Source: Pectobacterium brasiliense | Lineage (GTDB): Bacteria > Pseudomonadota > Gammaproteobacteria > Enterobacterales > Enterobacteriaceae | Assembly (NCBI RefSeq): GCF_013449685.1 | Contig: NZ_JACDSF010000050.1 | Location: 1-64,000 of the forward strand | Direction of reading: 5' to 3' | Length of the DNA stretch: 64,000 nucleotides | Shown: positions 7,294 through 44,984 of the stretch, piece after piece | Numbering within the stretch: the stretch's first letter is position 1 | Layout: each line of letters begins with the position of its first letter | Translations under genes and position numbers: made by a program | Notes under the pieces: generated by a model | The model's database searches: none | The model's input: the letters and a program-made list of their open reading frames with translations, nothing else | What the model was told of the DNA's origin: nothing

Positions 7294-7470
7294 TTAAATT
7301 TCGAAGCCTGGGGCGACTTCTTTTACTGGTTTTTTACACGCTTCTGGCTTGGGTTGATTCGCCGAGAGGTTTTTACAGTCAGGCGCAAAAGGATTCAGCG
7401 CATCGCGATTCAGATAGAGTACAAACAGGATCAGAATGATAAGGGGGATCAGAATGCGTTTTCTTTTCAT
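7294..7470 (-). CDS. Small membrane-anchored protein, 58 residues, function unknown
   Basis: The reading frame encodes 58 residues: a basic start (MKRKR), a single hydrophobic segment (ILIPLIILILFVLYL) and a short hydrophilic tail with two cysteines (PDCKNLSANQPKPEACKK) followed by a Pro-rich end. The predicted topology is N-in with the cysteines in the periplasm, where they could form a disulfide. Start 7470 is an ATG with a weak AAAGATAACC upstream. The positive-inside start, clean transmembrane segment and absence of frame breaks argue for a real gene, although it is too short for length-based calling. No family was recognised. A plus-strand frame over the same bases has no such features. 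Confidence 0.55.
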   Translation of the reverse strand: MKRKRILIPLIILILFVLYLNRDALNPFAPDCKNLSANQPKPEACKKPVKEVAPGFEI

Positions 7471-7615
7471 GGTTATCTTTAGTTGCGTTGCGGAACATGT
7501 GGATATGTTAAAAAAACAGGAAAAATTCTAACGCGTTGCGCGGCTTTTGTCTTTAGCCCGCTCGGTTTCCGCCTTATTGTAGTGGCTCGGCATGATGATA
7601 TCGGCAGAGGTGAAG

Positions 7616-8623
7616 GTGAAAAAGATTCGATTTGCAGCGATTGGGTTAGCGCACAATCACATTTATGACATGTGTCGGCAACTGGTTGATGCGGGCGCGG
7701 AACTGGTCGGCGTGTTCGAGTCCGATCCCAATAATCGGGAAAAATTCATCTCACTGTTCCCCGCCGTTCCTTTTGCCGATTCTGCGGAACAGCTGATTGC
7801 TGACGCGTCTATCGATCTTATTGCCTGTGCGGTGGTTCCCTGTGACCGAGCCGAACTGGCGCTGCGCACGCTGGATGCGGGTAAAGACTTCTTCACCGCG
7901 AAACCGCCGCTGACCACGCTGGAGCAGTTGGATGCCGTCCAGCGTCGGGTTGCCGAAACCGGCCGCAAGTTTGCCGTGTACTTTAATGAGCGAATCAATG
8001 TGGATAGCGCGCTGTTTGCCGGTGAACGGGTGCAACGGGGCGAGATCGGGCGAGTGATTCAGACGATCGGCGTGGGTCCCCATCGTGAACGCGGCGCGCG
8101 ACCCGACTGGTTTTATCAAAAGCGGCAGTACGGCGGGATCCTCTGCGATATCGGCATCCACCAGATCGAACAGTTTCTTTATTTTACCGGCAATACCAAC
8201 GCGCGAGTGGTGGCCAGCCAGACGGCGAACTATCACCACCCGCACCAGCCAGAGTTTGAGGATTTTGGCGATGCCATGCTGCTGGGCGACAATGGGGCAA
8301 CCGGCTATTTCCGCTGTGACTGGTTTACGCCGGATGGGCTGAGCGTTTGGGGCGATGGTCGCCTGACGATACTGGGGACGGAAGGCTATATCGAAATCAG
8401 GAAATATGTCGATCTGACGCGCGACGAAAGCAACGTTGTTTATCTGGTGAATGGCGAGGGCGAACAGCGCTTTACTCCCGCAGGCAGCGTCGAACGCACC
8501 TTTTTCTCGGATTTCCTTCGTGACTGTCGTGAACGTACCGAAAGCGCGATGTCGCAAGCGCATATCTTCAAAGCGACGGAACTGTCGATTCTGGCGCAGC
8601 AGGCCGCGAAGAAGATCGTTTAA
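7616..8623 (+). CDS. Gfo/Idh/MocA-family NAD(P)-dependent dehydrogenase
   Basis: A 335-residue oxidoreductase. The N-terminal Rossmann fold reads IRFAAIGLAHNHIYDM, with the dinucleotide loop altered from the usual GxGxxG to GLAHNH as in one sugar-dehydrogenase branch. It is followed by the family EKP-like loop (here TAKPPLTTLEQL, with conserved Lys-Pro). The C-terminal alpha/beta domain contains GGILCDIGIHQIEQFLYF, the usual Gxx-D-xG-xH active-site segment. A GTG at 7616 preceded by GAGG is the best start; ATG at 7592 is an alternative. The substrate is probably a sugar or inositol-like compound. It stands alone and a strong hairpin terminator follows. Proximity to the pectin genes hints at carbohydrate catabolism, but this is not proof. 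Confidence 0.82.
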   Translation: MKKIRFAAIGLAHNHIYDMCRQLVDAGAELVGVFESDPNNREKFISLFPAVPFADSAEQLIADASIDLIACAVVPCDRAELALRTLDAGKDFFTAKPPLTTLEQLDAVQRRVAETGRKFAVYFNERINVDSALFAGERVQRGEIGRVIQTIGVGPHRERGARPDWFYQKRQYGGILCDIGIHQIEQFLYFTGNTNARVVASQTANYHHPHQPEFEDFGDAMLLGDNGATGYFRCDWFTPDGLSVWGDGRLTILGTEGYIEIRKYVDLTRDESNVVYLVNGEGEQRFTPAGSVERTFFSDFLRDCRERTESAMSQAHIFKATELSILAQQAAKKIV

Positions 8624-8653
8624 ACGAACGCTGCCCCTGCGCATTAACCACAG

Positions 8654-8692
8654 CAACCGTGCTCCGCGATGGCGCACGGTTGTTCCTTTTTT
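8654..8692 (+). terminator. Rho-independent terminator after the dehydrogenase
   Basis: CAACCGTGC pairs perfectly with GCACGGTTG around an 11-base loop, and the run TTCCTTTTTT follows. It separates the dehydrogenase from the urea operon. Confidence 0.85.
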
Positions 8693-8748
8693 GTGCATGG
8701 AAATTGAGCGTCTCAGCCTAATTTCATAAAAATCAACAGGGTAAAAGC

Positions 8749-39037: not shown

Positions 39038-39724
39038 TTAATGATGCAGCAGCTCATCAACAACCTGATCGCTGGTGAGCTGATAGGGGTAATACGTTGG
39101 CCAGTTGTCCATTTCTTTGAGAATCTCTTCTTGCGACGTATTTCCCATAAAAATATGGAAATGAGCGGATTTACGCGGCGCAATGGTGTGATCGCTGAAC
39201 TGAACGTATTTCGGTGCTTTTGACTGGGCATCTTTACATTCAAACAGATAACGAACGCCTTTTTTACCCGATACATAGGTCAGGATCTTATGCCCAGAAT
39301 AGTCGTAATGGCATGAGGTCACTTCGCCATCTTTGTAGAACGTCATTACGCCATTGTCGATTTTTATTTCTGAAACATTGGTGGCGTAACCTTTGCGGTA
39401 ATAATCTTTAACCTGTTCAAATGTTTTACTTTTATCGCTTTCAGCTTTCTTTTTGAACACGGGATCCATCTCACCCGATAGCATAATCGGGTAGACCGAT
39501 TGCCACATTCCTTCCCAGTCGGTAAGCGCTCTGTCTTTTACATCGCTGTCGTTGAAAACGCCATTGGATGCTTTCTTTTCAATGTCGCTCATGGGCGCAC
39601 CATGTGAATGAGCGTGAGTATGGCCATGAGAATGGTTATGCGAATGATCGCCATGCGCGGCGACCTGACCGGTTACGAAGAGTGCCCCCAAGGCGAGTAC
39701 AAGTTTCTTAATATTATTAGACAA
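39038..39724 (-). CDS. zinT: Periplasmic zinc/cadmium-binding protein ZinT
   Basis: A 228-residue secreted metal chaperone (formerly YodA). Signal peptide [18 protein letters not shown] is followed by a His-rich linker ([19 protein letters not shown]) and the lipocalin-like ZinT domain: [48 protein letters not shown], and the metal-site HFHIFMG. The start is probably TTG at 39724, because GAGGGTTTGATT lies at the right distance and the upstream reading has no site. ZinT passes zinc to the ZnuA binding protein during starvation. A perfect palindrome (39757-39778) just upstream is a probable Zur operator shared with the divergent zinc GTPase gene. Confidence 0.93.
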
Positions 39725-39756
39725 AATCAAACCCTCAATGATTTTCCATGATTGAA

Positions 39757-39778
39757 TTGTTATGTTATAACATAACAA
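39757..39778. promoter_or_regulatory. Zur box shared by zinT and the zinc GTPase gene
   Basis: A 22-base perfect palindrome: TTGTTATGTTA followed by its exact inverse TAACATAACAA. Enterobacterial Zur sites have the core GTTATANTATAAC with flanking A/T, so this fits well. It lies 33 bases before zinT and 111 bases before the divergent GTPase gene. Under zinc starvation both would be derepressed. Confidence 0.8.
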
Positions 39779-39888
39779 ATAACGCATAAAAAGATTATCG
39801 CAATGCGTGTTTAAAAGCGAAACATTCGTGGTGATGAATCATTCCGAAGCAGAAAAGTAACAATGCAAATCATTAGAGAGTGTGAAAT

Positions 39889-41112
39889 ATGGCTGACGTT
39901 GTAGCTCGACAGAAAGCAGATGCAAGACTACCTGTGACCGTACTATCCGGCTTTCTCGGCGCGGGAAAGACCACGTTACTTAACCATATTCTGAATAATC
40001 GTGCTGGCCGCCGCGTCGCGGTGATCGTTAACGATATGTCAGAAGTGAATATTGATGCTGCGCTGGTGAGGGCGGGCGGCGCTGAGCTTTCACGGACGGA
40101 CGAAAAGCTGGTTGAAATGAGTAACGGCTGTATCTGTTGCACGCTGCGTGAAGATCTCCTGATCGAGGTTAATCGGCTGGCGAAAGAAGGGCGTTTTGAT
40201 CAGTTGGTCATTGAATCAACCGGTATTGCGGAACCGCTTCCGGTCGCGGAGACATTCACGTTTGCGGGTGACGATGGGGAAAGCCTCTCTGAAGTGGCTC
40301 GGCTGGATACGATGGTGACCGTTGTCGACGGATATAACTTCTTAAAAGATTACACGTCGGTGGACAGCATCCATTCACGCGGAGAATCGTTAGGAGAGGG
40401 TGACGAGCGCAGCGTTGTGGATTTGCTGATCGACCAGATCGAGTTCTGCAATGTCATTATCCTCAACAAAACCGACCTGATTGATACGGCGCAACAGCAG
40501 AAGCTGGTCGCGATTATTCGTTCACTGAATCCGGGAGCAAAAATACTTCATGCACAATTTGGCGCTGTGCCGCTGAACGAGGTGCTCGACACGGGACTGT
40601 TTGATTTCGACAAAGCGGCGCAGGCTCCCGGATGGTTGAAAGAGCTACGCGGCGAGCATACGCCTGAAACTGAGGAATATGGCATCACCAGTTTTGTTTT
40701 CCGCGCGCGTCGGCCGTTTCATCCTGCCCGTTTCGCGCAGGTCATGGAAAATTCGCTCACCGGGGTTGTCAGATCTAAAGGCTATTTTTGGTTAGCAAGT
40801 CGCCCGGAATATGCCGGATCGTGGTCTCAGGCAGGTGGCGTAGCGCGTCAAGGACTGGCTGGTTCATGGTGGGTCAGTGCGCCGAAAGAAAGATGGCCAA
40901 CAGATAACGAATCGCTGGATTACATTCGTTCCATTTGGGTGGATGGCGTGGGCGATGCGCGGCAGGAACTGGTGTTTATCGGTATCGATATGGATGAACA
41001 GGCGCTGCGAGCCCGCCTGGATGCTGCACTGCTGACGGACAAAGAAATGACCGAAGGTCTGGCGATGTGGGTATCTTATCCTGATCCAATAGATCCCTGG
41101 TTTGCGTCATAA
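39889..41112 (+). CDS. COG0523-family GTPase, putative zinc metallochaperone
   Basis: A 407-residue G3E GTPase. GTP motifs: [20 protein letters not shown] (Walker A), the CxCC metal motif in [28 protein letters not shown] (switch) and NKTDLID (base recognition). The C-terminal CobW domain begins near [20 protein letters not shown]. Zur-controlled members of this family (ZigA, YciC/ZagA, ZNG1) deliver zinc to client enzymes when the metal is scarce. The position opposite zinT with a shared Zur-like palindrome supports zinc and argues against cobalt or nitrile hydratase roles. No His-rich loop is present. Confidence 0.92.
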
Positions 41113-41465: not shown

Positions 41466-42206
41466 CTAGTCGCCATCAGTGCAAAGTTGCTTAATTCGTG
41501 CAATCACCTCATATCTGTACTTCTGGTGTCCACGCATAGCCCTTGGATGGGCTATTCTGAAACAGATTGCATTACCTACTTTAAACTCCCATAGCTTCCC
41601 CGGAATGACGGAAGAAGTCTCATAGCCGCCTAGCTCAGTAAGCACCTGCTTGATGATGTAGTCTGTTCTCCGGGCTCCGGATGCAAAGATAATGAAATCG
41701 GGCTCAAGGTGTTTAATTTGTGCATCCAACAATTTCACTGAGGCAGATATCACTTCCTGAACTTCACTTTCAGGGCGAATGAGTGGTGTCAGGCGATCAT
41801 AATCCCACGCCAGTAGATTGGCATATACGATAGCCTGAGGAGGGATATTCAACTCATGAGCCAACCGGAAATAATATTGTGTGAATCGGCTACGTGATTT
41901 GAGGTTTAGTGTTCCATCTTTTTTAGTTGGTAGATGCTGCTTGTAACGTTCGAAAGCCTCTTCAACCACCTGCTCTATGCTGATATCAGGTATAAGGCCC
42001 AGCACCCGAGACATCCTATTCTTCCCATTCAGCGTATTCCAGCCAGATGTTTCACGGCCAACCAGCATGATTTTTACCGGGGAATGCCAGTATTCATCAA
42101 ACGGGACAGGTAAGAAGACACCTGAGTATTTATCCTCTTCTAGGTTAAATGACTGGGCGTTAAGTCCCTGTAGTATTTGCTTATACGCGTTTATTAGTGC
42201 TTCCAT
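41466..42206 (-). CDS. Uracil-DNA-glycosylase-superfamily-like protein
   Basis: A protein of about 246 residues. The pattern VKIMLVGRETSGWN near the start, YANLLAWDYD in the middle, and DFIIFASGARRTDYIIK and FRIAHPRAMRGHQKYR near the end follow the order of motifs in the uracil-DNA glycosylase fold (substrate pocket, Asn strand, late His-Pro loop). The catalytic residues are not those of UDG families 1-5, so activity on uracil is doubtful. ATG 42206 has GGAGTGG upstream; a GTG at 42218 is possible. The gene is lower in GC than its neighbours and lies beside a tRNA-Leu relic, which suggests an island or phage origin. Proteins of this type turn up in defence and mobile contexts, but no partner gene is visible here. 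Confidence 0.5.
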   Translation of the reverse strand: MEALINAYKQILQGLNAQSFNLEEDKYSGVFLPVPFDEYWHSPVKIMLVGRETSGWNTLNGKNRMSRVLGLIPDISIEQVVEEAFERYKQHLPTKKDGTLNLKSRSRFTQYYFRLAHELNIPPQAIVYANLLAWDYDRLTPLIRPESEVQEVISASVKLLDAQIKHLEPDFIIFASGARRTDYIIKQVLTELGGYETSSVIPGKLWEFKVGNAICFRIAHPRAMRGHQKYRYEVIARIKQLCTDGD

Positions 42207-42330
42207 GCTTTGTTCCACTCCGAAATGAAAAATACTTCAAATATATATTATTCACATGAGATCAGTCGGGTATATGAAGATAACTATGCAGAAAATACTT
42301 CCGGTTTACCAACGCCACTGTCCCTACGTA

Positions 42331-42449: not shown

Positions 42450-43586
42450 TTAAGGTTCATAGCGAACAACATGTGCTTCCGTCGGTGCGGGAAGCTCCCA
42501 TTTTGTCAGCATACCTTGCAGCGTTTTATTGCTCAGTGTGGTGTCCCGTTTCCCGTTGCGGCGCAGTAATTCCTGACGCGGGCGCTCCAGATAGACAATC
42601 TCCACTTCTGCGCCGTAGGCGTAGCACAGATCCAACGTGCGGGTGCGCATTTGCTGGCTCAGGTGTGTGGCGTTCCACACGAACGGTTCATGCGTTCGCA
42701 GCAGTGAACGCGCTTTGTCGGTCGCCCAATGCACCGCTTTCCCTTCATTTTCGCCATGTTTCAGTCCCAGCTCTGTTCGCGCATCGTCGAAAGAAACTGC
42801 GGGTAAATCGTGCCGATGCGTCCGCACCCAGGTGTCTTTTCCCGATGCGGGCAAACCGCACATCACGGTGACTTTCGAACCCGGCTCCTGAAACAGTGGA
42901 TAATCTGGATGCACATCGGCTCCGCGAAAATAGCTCAAGCGCGTGTGAGCATCGACAAACGATCTCGGTTGGCCGTAACAGCCTTCTTCCCGCGCCAGCT
43001 CGCGGAACAGCTCAATACTGTCGAGCACGCGCGCTTGATCCTGACAGATGCGCCCGCGCATATCGGCTTCCGCCAGCGTTGCCAGCAGCGGAATACTCAA
43101 TTGCCAAGAGAGTTCGCGAATCGTAAAGATCGGCGACATCCGACGGCGTTCATCCTCAAGGCAGTAAAATGGCACCTGATGCACCGAAATTAAGCGACAA
43201 ATCGCTTCCCGAATCGCAAACGGAACGCCTGCATCCCACAGCAGCACCCGGGCGTCGATAGCACCTTTGCGCGAGTGTCCCGGCTGACCAATCTGACCCG
43301 TTACTGGGTCAATCACTGTCGTGCGATATTTTGCAACGTCATGCAGCAACGCGGCAAAAAACAAAATTTCCTGCTGCTCGCGCGTGGCTGTCTGGTAATC
43401 GTGAAGCTGCAAGAGCGACTCGACCACCATGATGGTGTGTGTCCAGACATCACCTTCACCGTGATAGCGCGGTTCCTGCGGCGTCTCTTTAGCGCGTTGA
43501 AGTACTGGAAACGCGTCCAGACAATCAGCAAAATCTGGCTGTGCGCCAGAGGTGGGGACCAATCCCCTGATGATATTCCAATCCAT
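42450..43586 (-). CDS. HD-Pnk: HD phosphoesterase fused to polynucleotide kinase, RNA end-healing
   Basis: A 378-residue two-domain protein. The HD domain (about 20-210) has HGEGDVWTHTIMVVESLL, the HD pair at about 82-83 in FFAALLHDVAKYRT, and PGHSRKGA. The kinase domain (from about 238) has Walker A VMCGLPASGKDTW at about 241-253, then SFDDARTEL, FVWNATHLSQQMRTRTLDLC and IVYLERPRQELLRRN with the lid arginines. The same architecture, HD then Pnk, was described for Runella HD-Pnk: the HD part removes 2',3'-cyclic phosphate and the kinase adds a 5'-phosphate. Start 43586 is preferred since AAGGAG lies nine bases before it. It is 15 bases behind an RNA ligase gene on the same strand, so healing and sealing steps are encoded together. 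Confidence 0.85.
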   Translation of the reverse strand: MDWNIIRGLVPTSGAQPDFADCLDAFPVLQRAKETPQEPRYHGEGDVWTHTIMVVESLLQLHDYQTATREQQEILFFAALLHDVAKYRTTVIDPVTGQIGQPGHSRKGAIDARVLLWDAGVPFAIREAICRLISVHQVPFYCLEDERRRMSPIFTIRELSWQLSIPLLATLAEADMRGRICQDQARVLDSIELFRELAREEGCYGQPRSFVDAHTRLSYFRGADVHPDYPLFQEPGSKVTVMCGLPASGKDTWVRTHRHDLPAVSFDDARTELGLKHGENEGKAVHWATDKARSLLRTHEPFVWNATHLSQQMRTRTLDLCYAYGAEVEIVYLERPRQELLRRNGKRDTTLSNKTLQGMLTKWELPAPTEAHVVRYEP

Positions 43587-43600
43587 GATAATCATACTCC

Positions 43601-44485
43601 TTACTTATCGGGCATCGCGGCGACGAGCGCGTCTAAAGAACGCAGCGTATTCAGCCCCAGCATTTCCCAAGATACGGTTGGACAGGGCGCGTACAGATCA
43701 ACGCCGTCAGCCAGTTGGTTCGGCAAAATCGGGCGCCGGGAATGATGCGAGCCGCTGTCCAAAATGGTCTGGATGAAGTCATGGCGTACCAGCTTGTAAC
43801 GTGCCAGTACCTGTTCATCATCTTCAACTTTTAAATAAAGGCCTTCCGAACGGTCCGATTTATCGGTTTGCTGCCAGCACAGCGCGAGCGGCAAACCTTC
43901 ACGCTGCACGGTGGATTCAAACGCGGTCTTCCAGTTCTGGCTTTTCGCCAGCGAACGGAACACCAGCTTCCACAGCAATGCCGGATTTGTTGGCATCTCC
44001 CCGGCGTAAAGCACCGGAACGGACAACACGGGCGAACCGGCCAGCATCGCGTGCCGGCGCGCTGTCGATAAAAAAATGCCCTCACGACGATCGTAAATAT
44101 CAAATTCGTGAAAGTAGTGCGGCAACCGGTCGTAAAACACGGAATGCTTGCTGTACGCCCATTCGCCGTACATCACGAAACGGTCTTCCAGCAGCTCAAG
44201 AAAACGCATTTCGTGCGCAGTAGCCCAGAACTTGAACGAGTTGAACTGCCGTTCCCGTGAGCCACCAGCCAGATAGTGGCCGCGCGACTGGAGCAGGAGT
44301 TCCGCCGTTTCATTGAAAGACACGCCGCTGTTCGCGCCGTCGATCTTTTCTTCGATCACGACGTAACGGCCTGCCAGCGCTTTCAGTGCAATTTGGTCCG
44401 ACGCATCATCGCCAGACTGTAAACGCGAACCTTCCAGATGCGGGGTACGTGGATACTTTAATAATGGTATTGAATGTAAATACAT
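43601..44485 (-). CDS. ATP-dependent RNA ligase
   Basis: A 294-residue nucleotidyltransferase. Motif I is VVIEEKIDGANSGVSF with Lys47 as the probable AMP acceptor. Motif III-like MYGEWAYSKHSVFY, motif IV SEGLYLKVEDD and motif V ARYKLVRHDF follow in correct order and spacing. The start at 44485 (MYLHSIPLLKYPRTPHLEGS) has GCAGGCGAAAAAC upstream; the longer reading adds 13 residues without a site. With the downstream HD-Pnk it forms a complete RNA repair set: the ligase seals 3'-OH to 5'-phosphate ends made by the partner. Natural substrates could be tRNAs cut by anticodon nucleases. A long leader without a gene lies upstream. Confidence 0.87.
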   Translation of the reverse strand: MYLHSIPLLKYPRTPHLEGSRLQSGDDASDQIALKALAGRYVVIEEKIDGANSGVSFNETAELLLQSRGHYLAGGSRERQFNSFKFWATAHEMRFLELLEDRFVMYGEWAYSKHSVFYDRLPHYFHEFDIYDRREGIFLSTARRHAMLAGSPVLSVPVLYAGEMPTNPALLWKLVFRSLAKSQNWKTAFESTVQREGLPLALCWQQTDKSDRSEGLYLKVEDDEQVLARYKLVRHDFIQTILDSGSHHSRRPILPNQLADGVDLYAPCPTVSWEMLGLNTLRSLDALVAAMPDK

Positions 44486-44981
44486 GTTTTTCGCCTGCTG
44501 CGTTATTGGCACAGCCAGGCCCATCTACGGTAAAAAAGAGGGCCGACGAACGTGTTCTGGCGCGAGTCAATAGCTGGCCGCTGGCATTCCAGAGGTCAGA
44601 GTCGCGGGGGAGGAAGCGGGAGGTTCATTTTCTGCTCCGCACAATAGCGGGGAAAACAGGAAACTCGTACCGCAGCCAACGCTGGCGCAGACTGCGCCGA
44701 ATCGAGGCTGCTTAATGCAGTCGTCGGCGGTTAGTGGGGGGCTGACGTACAGGGCACTTTAGGGCTCCAAATGACACATTGGGGGTGAGTAAACGGCGCG
44801 ATTCTAGCGAAGGAATTCTCCGACAACAAGTTTTTGTATAAAAAATGCTATTCTTTCCTGTAGTTGTAGAATGCGCTGTCACGTGTAAACGTGGTAAAAA
44901 GGCCAGAGGTTATCGACGTTAGCGTGATAAGAATGGCGCGTGGTGGGATAGGGGAGTGCATACAATGAATAGCAGGGGAAT
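44486..44981. other. Leader region of the RNA-repair operon and promoter of the next gene
   Basis: About 495 bases have no convincing gene. On the minus strand the 300 bases before the ligase are GC-rich and full of short complementary segments, for example GCGGAGCAG against CCTCCCGC at 44612-44636 and TGGCTG against CAGCC. This would fit a structured 5' leader or a small RNA. No sigma54 element, RtcR gene or tRNA-like module could be shown. The plus-strand side (44820-44980) is AT-richer and likely holds the promoter for the gene at 44985. Confidence 0.45.
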
Positions 44982-44984
44982 ATG

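Follow-up and report, generated by a model that had tools for sequence, protein, structure and literature searches.

A predicted RNA end-healing and sealing operon of Pectobacterium brasiliense preceded by a candidate ribosome-sensing leader

In the 64,000-nucleotide stretch of Pectobacterium brasiliense DNA analysed here (the window), a gene for an RNA ligase is followed on the minus strand by one for HD-Pnk, a fusion of an HD phosphoesterase with a P-loop polynucleotide kinase. We favour, with somewhat better than even confidence, the reading that these genes heal and seal RNA ends as an operon of the HD-Pnk/RNA-ligase kind, with a translated leader that acts in cis to control it. The pair is of a kind already known; what is new is the leader. 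Judged from the sequence, the operon unit reaches upstream to about 44829 and takes in this leader and its promoter. The best reading of the leader is an attenuator that would sense stalled ribosomes, kin in principle to PA5471.1 of armZ/prfH and to toiL. The case is built on the leader's parts and their conservation, on the covariation of a long-range pairing, P1, and on leader damage in two congeners that lack the operon.

The ligase (294 aa, 43601..44485, minus strand) was assigned by profile, residues and model to the ATP-dependent RNA ligase family PF09414 (E 3e-36, 125.6 bits, cut-off 27). Residues E46-K47-x-D49-G50 (which we take to be motif I), E108, E214-G215, K231, V233 and R234 are unchanged across 14 sequences including that of the window. 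The motifs I, IV and V proposed in a sequence-only reading of this DNA were therefore recovered (K47, E214-G215, K231, R234), with the ligase Lys kept throughout. The median dN/dS of 0.049 (18 congeners) indicates strong purifying selection. The predicted structure was weaker than that of HD-Pnk (pLDDT 72.9), and its TM-scores against the PDB were modest, near 0.4. At E ≤ 0.001 it gave 38 matches, 36 of them to entries whose titles name an RNA or tRNA ligase (Naegleria, archaeal, T4 Rnl2, trypanosome, fungal Trl1, T4 Rnl1); the other two were chains of 3qwu, a putative DNA ligase. These fold matches favour RNA rather than DNA sealing by the PF09414 enzyme, although they are no proof of it.

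HD-Pnk is encoded by a minus-strand ORF of 381 aa (43595..42450), which scored above the cut-offs of both the HD profile PF01966 (E 4.9e-6, 27.3 bits, cut-off 22) and AAA_33 (E 3.6e-18, 66.7 bits, cut-off 27). Across the same number of sequences (14, including the window's), H45, H53, H85-D86, H107 and D178 of the HD part are unchanged, as are G252-K253 (presumably the Walker A motif), D270, R273, R317 and R350. The HD pair and the Walker A are thus retained, and the order of an HD domain followed by a P-loop kinase, as first read from the letters, holds. Selection is again strongly purifying (median dN/dS 0.053, 17 congeners). The AlphaFold2 model is confident (pLDDT 92.8) and resembles mammalian, Clostridium and T4 polynucleotide kinases in the PDB. 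Further matches, presumably due to the HD half, are entries with the title 'tRNA processing enzyme'; the HD domain resembles that of CCA-adding enzymes weakly, with a score below the cut-off.

The gap between the two genes is 5 nt to the ATG at 43595 and 14 nt to the ATG at 43586. An AAGGAG at 43602-43597, noted by eye, overlaps the ligase stop codon and lies 10 nt before ATG 43586. Since it is well spaced for that ATG alone, 43586 is the likelier start of HD-Pnk (42450..43586), and the two genes are probably translationally coupled. The shared strand claimed for them earlier stands, and the claimed spacing of 15 bases is off by no more than one. With all three profiles above cut-off, catalytic residues intact and dN/dS near 0.05, the two-gene RNA repair cassette proposed in the sequence-only reading is confirmed; families, residues, predicted folds and linkage in an operon all speak for the enzyme identities and for the heal-and-seal logic. 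As inferred from the families, HD-Pnk would strip a 2',3'-cyclic or 3' phosphate and phosphorylate the 5'-OH, after which the ligase would seal the healed ends.

A survey of 98 relatives including the window genome gave an HD-Pnk match in 34 and a ligase match in 27; some of the weak HD matches are probably other proteins. Within the window's genus, a cooccurrence survey found both genes at full length in 18 of 25 genomes, its own included. One of the 18 (G009) has an in-frame TAG within HD-Pnk, and another genome (G011) carries a broken extra copy besides the intact one. Both genes are split in G021, remnants were seen in G004, G016 and G019, and neither gene was matched in G007, G012 and G013. 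The neighbour gene at 44982 is present in all 25 genomes. Of the 18 intact ones, 17 have it next to the ligase, and G006 has it on another contig. This adjacency, together with the losses in congeners, indicates that the pair is old here and is being lost. HD-Pnk was found in 28/394 genomes of the order, 30/295 of the family, 4/369 of the class sample and 7/398 of the phylum sample; the window genome is counted in these samples, which overlap. The earlier remark that the pair is less usual for a plant pathogen among the enterobacteria was therefore too strong.

Among the matches listed in named records, HD-Pnk was full length at 14 of 46 loci (Bacteroidota, cyanobacteria, a Lachnospiraceae bin and proteobacteria), with the ligase directly upstream in all 14. 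The other 32 listed loci, which are HD-only or like other HD proteins and in many cases of CCA-enzyme length, were left out. Exceptions to this order occur on plasmids and in viral contigs. Six plasmid loci (L024, L214, L215, L218, L221, L222) carry HD-Pnk with no ligase match within 3-4 kb on each side, though two of these plasmids (Rhizobium, Miltoncostaea) have one elsewhere; on a further plasmid (L213) the ligase comes after HD-Pnk. These seven loci were excluded from the leader survey described below. In one genome (G083), a second HD-Pnk copy (L032) has neither a Walker A nor a ligase.

The window leader (44829-44486, minus strand throughout) was compared with the corresponding DNA of 18 congeners. 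By eye, its promoter is of the sigma70 type and stable-RNA-like, with a -35 element TTGTTG (44824..44829), a 17-nt spacer and a -10 element TAGAAT (44801..44806) followed by the GC-rich discriminator CGCGCCG; similar promoters (GATAAT-GGCGCCG, TTGAAT-GCGCGCC) were seen, likewise by eye, in other lineages. A Shine-Dalgarno (SD) sequence GGAG (44765..44768) precedes a mini-ORF of eight codons, GTG CCC TGT ACG TCA GCC CCC CAC TAA (44731..44757), which begins with Met-Pro. Two nucleotides past its stop begins the 5' half of P1, GCCGACGA (44721..44728); the 3' half, TCGTCGGC (44542..44549), is followed by CCTC and a T-run at 44537-44532. The halves form 8 bp with 171 nt between them, and they lie within the invariant runs 44730-44717 and 44553-44539 (CCGCCGACGACTGC and ACGTTCGTCGGCCCT). 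Between them, a 46-nt invariant run (44712-44667) contains the hairpin P2/P3 (44672..44711; GCAGCC..GGCTGC enclosing GGCGCA-GTC-TGCGCC). P2/P3 appears in the MFE folds, and its invariance makes covariation impossible. A candidate hairpin with the ligase SD (GCCTGGCTGTG / CGCAGCAGGC, 44493..44520) was obtained when the window leader was folded with P1 forced and is, by eye, poorly kept in some congeners. The overall folding of the leader is ordinary (z -1.57 and -0.94).

The DNA 5' of the ligase is conserved above the synonymous sites of the ligase itself. Among the 18 congeners, invariant columns amount to 23/27 in the mini-ORF, 62/66 in the 66 nt past its stop, 72/90 in a second conserved block, 24/55 in the stretch between the blocks and 19/30 in the promoter stretch (44830-44801), as against 24/108 of the four-fold sites in the ligase. 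The start, Pro codon and stop of the mini-ORF are unchanged in 20 congener leaders, G007 and G013 being the exceptions. These two genomes lack the enzymes: the leader of G013 has lost 15 nt from the invariant block, and that of G007 has lost 1 nt inside the mini-ORF and bears several point changes in the invariant block. No leader match was found in G012, G016 and G019, which have no intact genes; in G004 and G021, whose genes are broken, the leader is still present at 95%. The damage where the enzymes are absent suggests, in a small sample, that the leader serves the operon.

The same damage bears on the view that the leader acts not as an attenuator but in trans, as a small RNA or as an RNA substrate or decoy of the Y-RNA kind. 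The invariant 46-nt hairpin and the stable-RNA-like promoter would suit such an RNA. At the gathering score Rfam gave no match in the window, and below threshold the leader region gave a single chance-like one on the opposite strand (10 bits vs 55). No tRNA gene was found in the window and no similarity of the leader to E. coli genomes, so the leader was rejected as a known RNA. P1, however, spans the leader, and it covaries even where relatives lack the 46-nt hairpin, and the leader decays in the two congeners without downstream genes. An independent ncRNA gene was for this reason not our first choice, and we consider a role in trans quite improbable.

Leaders were surveyed at 121 loci, of which nine without a ligase match were dropped and one (L147) had no leader; the remaining 111 leaders gave 70 non-redundant ones. 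A candidate mini-ORF, either a Met-Pro ORF of 8-9 codons or a bare ATG-stop, was present in 32 of the 70. The patterns used detected neither class in the other 38, which include Deinococcus, a Vibrio locus (L059), most of the alphaproteobacterial and phage-type loci, and a number of enterobacterial groups. In the Met-Pro class, with GTG or ATG as start codon, a length of 27 nt and Pro at codon 2 recur in 3/3 Pseudomonas leaders and in 11/11 leaders of a family (f207) with genomes of 2.5-3.1 Mb. The mini-peptide is not conserved beyond Met-Pro: it reads MPCTSQLA* and MPYASQHA* in Pseudomonas plasmids and P. chlororaphis, MPVVNTLS* and variants in f207, MPRFFAITC* in Janthinobacterium and MPRRTVLC* in Acidovorax. 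The bare class (ATG-TAA or ATG-TAG) occurs in Bacteroidota (L049, L051, L053-L055), cyanobacteria (L026, L048, L050, L052), a Lachnospiraceae locus (L056), Motilimonas types, Proteus types and a further family (f8).

The motif ATGTA[AG]T was found in 21 of the 70 leaders, compared with 3.6±1.8 in 300 shuffles (maximum 9), and ATGTAAT ranked first of its 140 permutations over all 70. The motif drew attention in an initial set of 26 non-redundant leaders (14 vs 1.6 expected). It recurred in 7 of the 44 later ones (2.2 expected; reached by 2/500 shuffles), some of which are kin of the initial set, so that the test is not fully independent. Looser patterns gave any ATG-stop in 28/70 leaders (13.9 expected) and a Met-Pro ORF in 16/70 (7.2 expected; reached by 1/300 shuffles). 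Were the ATGTAAT and Met-Pro ORFs incidental, the leaders would instead hold protein-binding sites; a mini-peptide that is not conserved, and the 38 leaders with neither class, are what one would expect then. Against this, an SD-like sequence, a start, a stop and a P1-type pairing recur jointly in several lineages, and we regard coincidence as improbable. An upstream ORF with SD and stop is present ahead of the ligase at 44757-44731 and in the relatives, as read from the DNA alone.

P1-type pairing of the mini-ORF stop region with the 70 nt directly preceding the ligase was tested against shuffles. It was significant in the window leader (p 0.03) and, at p < 0.05, in 18 of 32 leaders (7/11 Met-Pro, 11/21 start-stop); in Janthinobacterium, Acidovorax and L251 the pairing was insignificant. 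When partners were swapped within a class, the true partner was best in 6/32 leaders (4/21 start-stop, 2/11 Met-Pro). A weak outcome of this control is expected in the Met-Pro class, because its segments resemble each other.

Covariation was examined in 14 leaders (11 of f207 and 3 of Pseudomonas) aligned without structure. Pectobacterium-type and Janthinobacterium leaders were left out because a joint alignment failed to align the 3' half of the Pectobacterium type. RNAalifold recovered P1 and, in a slightly shifted register, the ligase-SD hairpin. Changes on both sides were found at four pairs, three of them among the 11 pairs of P1, a count reached by 3/500 shuffles; those in P1 separate f207 from Pseudomonas and therefore represent few independent events. 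The covariation score of P1 and the SD hairpin (0.238) was reached in 0/500 shuffles and fell at every slide. The count of pair types showed no excess (287/500 shuffles), and two P1 pairs are not kept throughout, one being open in 11 and the other in 3 of the 14 sequences.

From these features we infer a switch in which the mini-ORF is translated; its direction and inducer, and an rRNA or tRNA target, are inferred likewise. The transcript would start at the leader's own promoter, and a ribosome would load on the mini-ORF, in which codon 2 encodes proline or, in the lineages of the bare class, is a stop. Either of these in the A site makes the step after the start codon slow, and a damaged decoding site or damaged substrates would slow it further. 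That both classes share this slow step suggests the sensing of ribosomes stuck there. A ribosome held at the start codon would leave the 5' half of P1 free, P1 would form, and the downstream RNA would then be arranged for ligase expression; a ribosome reaching the mini-ORF stop would cover that half. For the start-stop class, a stalled ribosome would instead cover a segment that otherwise pairs with the ligase ribosome-binding region.

Simulated ribosomes were consistent with parts of this scheme. With the mask on the start-stop, the gain in access to the ligase SD lay in the top tenth of mask positions (90th percentile or higher) in 12/21 start-stop leaders, and no or a negative effect was seen in 5/21. 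Among Met-Pro leaders, SD access was higher with the ribosome at the start than at the stop in 12/14; the start-codon mask reached the 90th percentile in 3/14 and favoured P1 in most. For this class, no support was obtained for an ON state with the ribosome on the mini-ORF stop: 0/15 reached the 90th percentile, effects were near 0, and the stop-codon mask was clearly negative in 3/7 f207 leaders. The start-codon position therefore fits the ON state better, if weakly, in these simulations. In the window leader, P1 was formed at 0.08 when free, 0.86 with the ribosome at the start and 0 at the stop (the last by construction), and ligase SD access was unchanged (0.43/0.41/0.43). Since P1 responds and SD access does not, transcription attenuation at the T-run 44537-44532 is as likely here as control at the SD. 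A simple terminator reading was rejected, as T-runs follow P1 in some leaders (the window, L054) and not in all.

The leader also bears on what is mended. The proposal that the enzymes specifically repair tRNAs cut by the anticodon nucleases of rivals or phages, as analogues of T4 Pnkp/Rnl1, fits the enzyme set, the 'tRNA processing enzyme' matches of the HD-Pnk model and the faint resemblance to CCA-adding enzymes. The operon is chromosomal and present in 18/25 genomes of the genus, however, and PADLOC gave no match for the three proteins tested; a defence-system label was dropped on this ground. Start-stop leaders, moreover, need no elongator tRNA and would therefore not sense cut elongator tRNAs directly. 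We thus hold this narrower role to be unlikely; the leader points more generally to trouble of the translation machinery than to tRNA cutting.

Another possibility is that HD-Pnk and the ligase mend broken DNA ends, as proposed for DRB0098-DRB0100 of Deinococcus radiodurans. HD-Pnk of Runella slithyformis is said to act on DNA ends as well, and one plasmid copy (L213) has umuD and recX in its vicinity. The D. radiodurans operon DRB0100-DRB0099-DRB0098 (L219) has the gene set of the window plus one gene in the middle, TIGR02452/macro-like; by the patterns used, it has no mini-ORF. One report describes DRB0098 as phosphorylating a DNA oligonucleotide at its 5'-OH and the operon as induced by radiation (PMC1997131). 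A further finding of that report tells against our preferred reading: the 3'-phosphatase seen with DRB0098 was not lowered in HD-motif mutants, contamination not being excluded there (PMC1997131). DRB0100 is described as adenylylating but, alone, not a DNA ligase (PMC1997131). Against DNA as the substrate stand also the PF09414 assignment of the window ligase, whose model prefers RNA over DNA ligases, and a leader that reads as a translation sensor. In Motilimonas (L057), moreover, rtcB and a prfH-like gene neighbour the pair (order rtcB, prfH-like, LMWPc-like, ligase, HD-Pnk). All in all, DNA break repair appears a distinctly improbable role. The window genome has one rtcB match, away from the operon.

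RNA end healing and sealing under the control of a translated leader thus remains our preferred reading. The leader may help to tell what bacterial end-healing and sealing operons repair, and when: if it senses stuck ribosomes, the inducer, and hence the substrate, becomes directly testable by reporter. A bare start-stop ORF would also be a very economical regulatory sensor among bacterial attenuators. No such leader for HD-Pnk/ligase operons was found in the titles and abstracts of a literature set that omits most subscription papers, which is weak evidence of absence. Three rtcB-prfH loci (Klebsiella, Motilimonas and E. coli records) carry mini-ORFs of 13-15 codons with strong SDs and, by eye, complementary segments. 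We tentatively suggest, as a possibility short of an even chance, that the unrelated ligase-HD-Pnk and rtcB-prfH operons are both switched by minimal upstream ORFs, even AUG-stop, which directly sense ribosomes stuck while their A site is unserved. Damage to ribosomes or tRNAs would in that case be linked to its own repair by a general riboregulator.

Among known systems, the Runella HD-Pnk reportedly has the same plan of an N-terminal HD phosphoesterase and a C-terminal P-loop kinase, and it is said to stand often in an operon with a putative ATP-dependent ligase; the window adds a candidate leader control, with its enzyme activity predicted. T4 Pnkp/Rnl1 reportedly also heals and then seals with a separate ligase. 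The Pnkp1-Rnl-Hen1 system is described as doing so too, although Pnkp1 is a T4 Pnkp homologue and not, like the window enzyme, an HD protein (PMC4411300). In a paper on rtcB2-prfH and colicin E3, the words 'leader' and 'upstream' are absent from the main text (PMC9223846). On the uORF toiL of E. coli, which unlike the window leader governs a toxin-antitoxin pair (topAI-yjhQ), stalled ribosomes remodel the RNA around the ribosome-binding site, and tetracycline stalls them at its start codon (PMC12121999). With toiL, the nearest parallel in principle is P. aeruginosa PA5471.1, through which armZ/prfH is reportedly induced and which is linked to ribosome-targeting drugs (PMC12057347). It is said to be a small translated leader that controls an RNA-ligase-like gene on ribosome stalling, as we propose here; unlike the window leader it heads an rtcB-type operon (ArmZ being RtcB-like), and the two are likened by description rather than by alignment.

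In the window, the gene between HD-Pnk and the CobW gene (41466-42218, minus strand) encodes a protein of unknown function that matches phrog_29550 (E = 1.3e-152); its match to uracil-DNA-glycosylase was solely sub-threshold. In a congener (G005), this position is occupied by a gap of some 190 bp. A ZinT gene and the adjoining, divergent CobW-type GTPase gene (39038-41112) are a likely zinc-homeostasis pair.

Second HD-Pnk copies were seen in two of the compared genomes. In the congener G011, a broken second HD-Pnk and a ligase remnant adjoin the intact pair (locus L038, about 7400-8700). G083 carries a second HD-Pnk paralogue lacking the Walker A motif and an adjoining ligase (L032, 4512-5675), besides an intact ligase/HD-Pnk pair at another site. 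The pair also occurs in a record of an uncultured phage (462 kb; contig L029, 2868-3962), in a tight gene run that follows an AAA ATPase; by eye, this ligase has an additional HNH-like N-terminal part.

Ligase relatives without HD-Pnk were found in two three-gene clusters (L042, 3911-6545; L043, 4108-6657), whose other two genes encode an AAA_15/DUF3696 ATPase and a protein of 180 aa. The latter had no Pfam match and appeared PIN-like by eye. These clusters are possibly nuclease-plus-ligase defence units.

In the rtcB-prfH operons of L276, L277, and L057 (Motilimonas), mini-ORFs of 13-15 codons, preceded by strong Shine-Dalgarno sequences, lie upstream of rtcB. Their respective products are MQNTSTSFAGLVR, MTNPLSMTLCRPFQD, and MTLTLASFAGLSR, each ending at a stop codon. 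Complementary segments were discerned by eye close to the rtcB start in all three loci.
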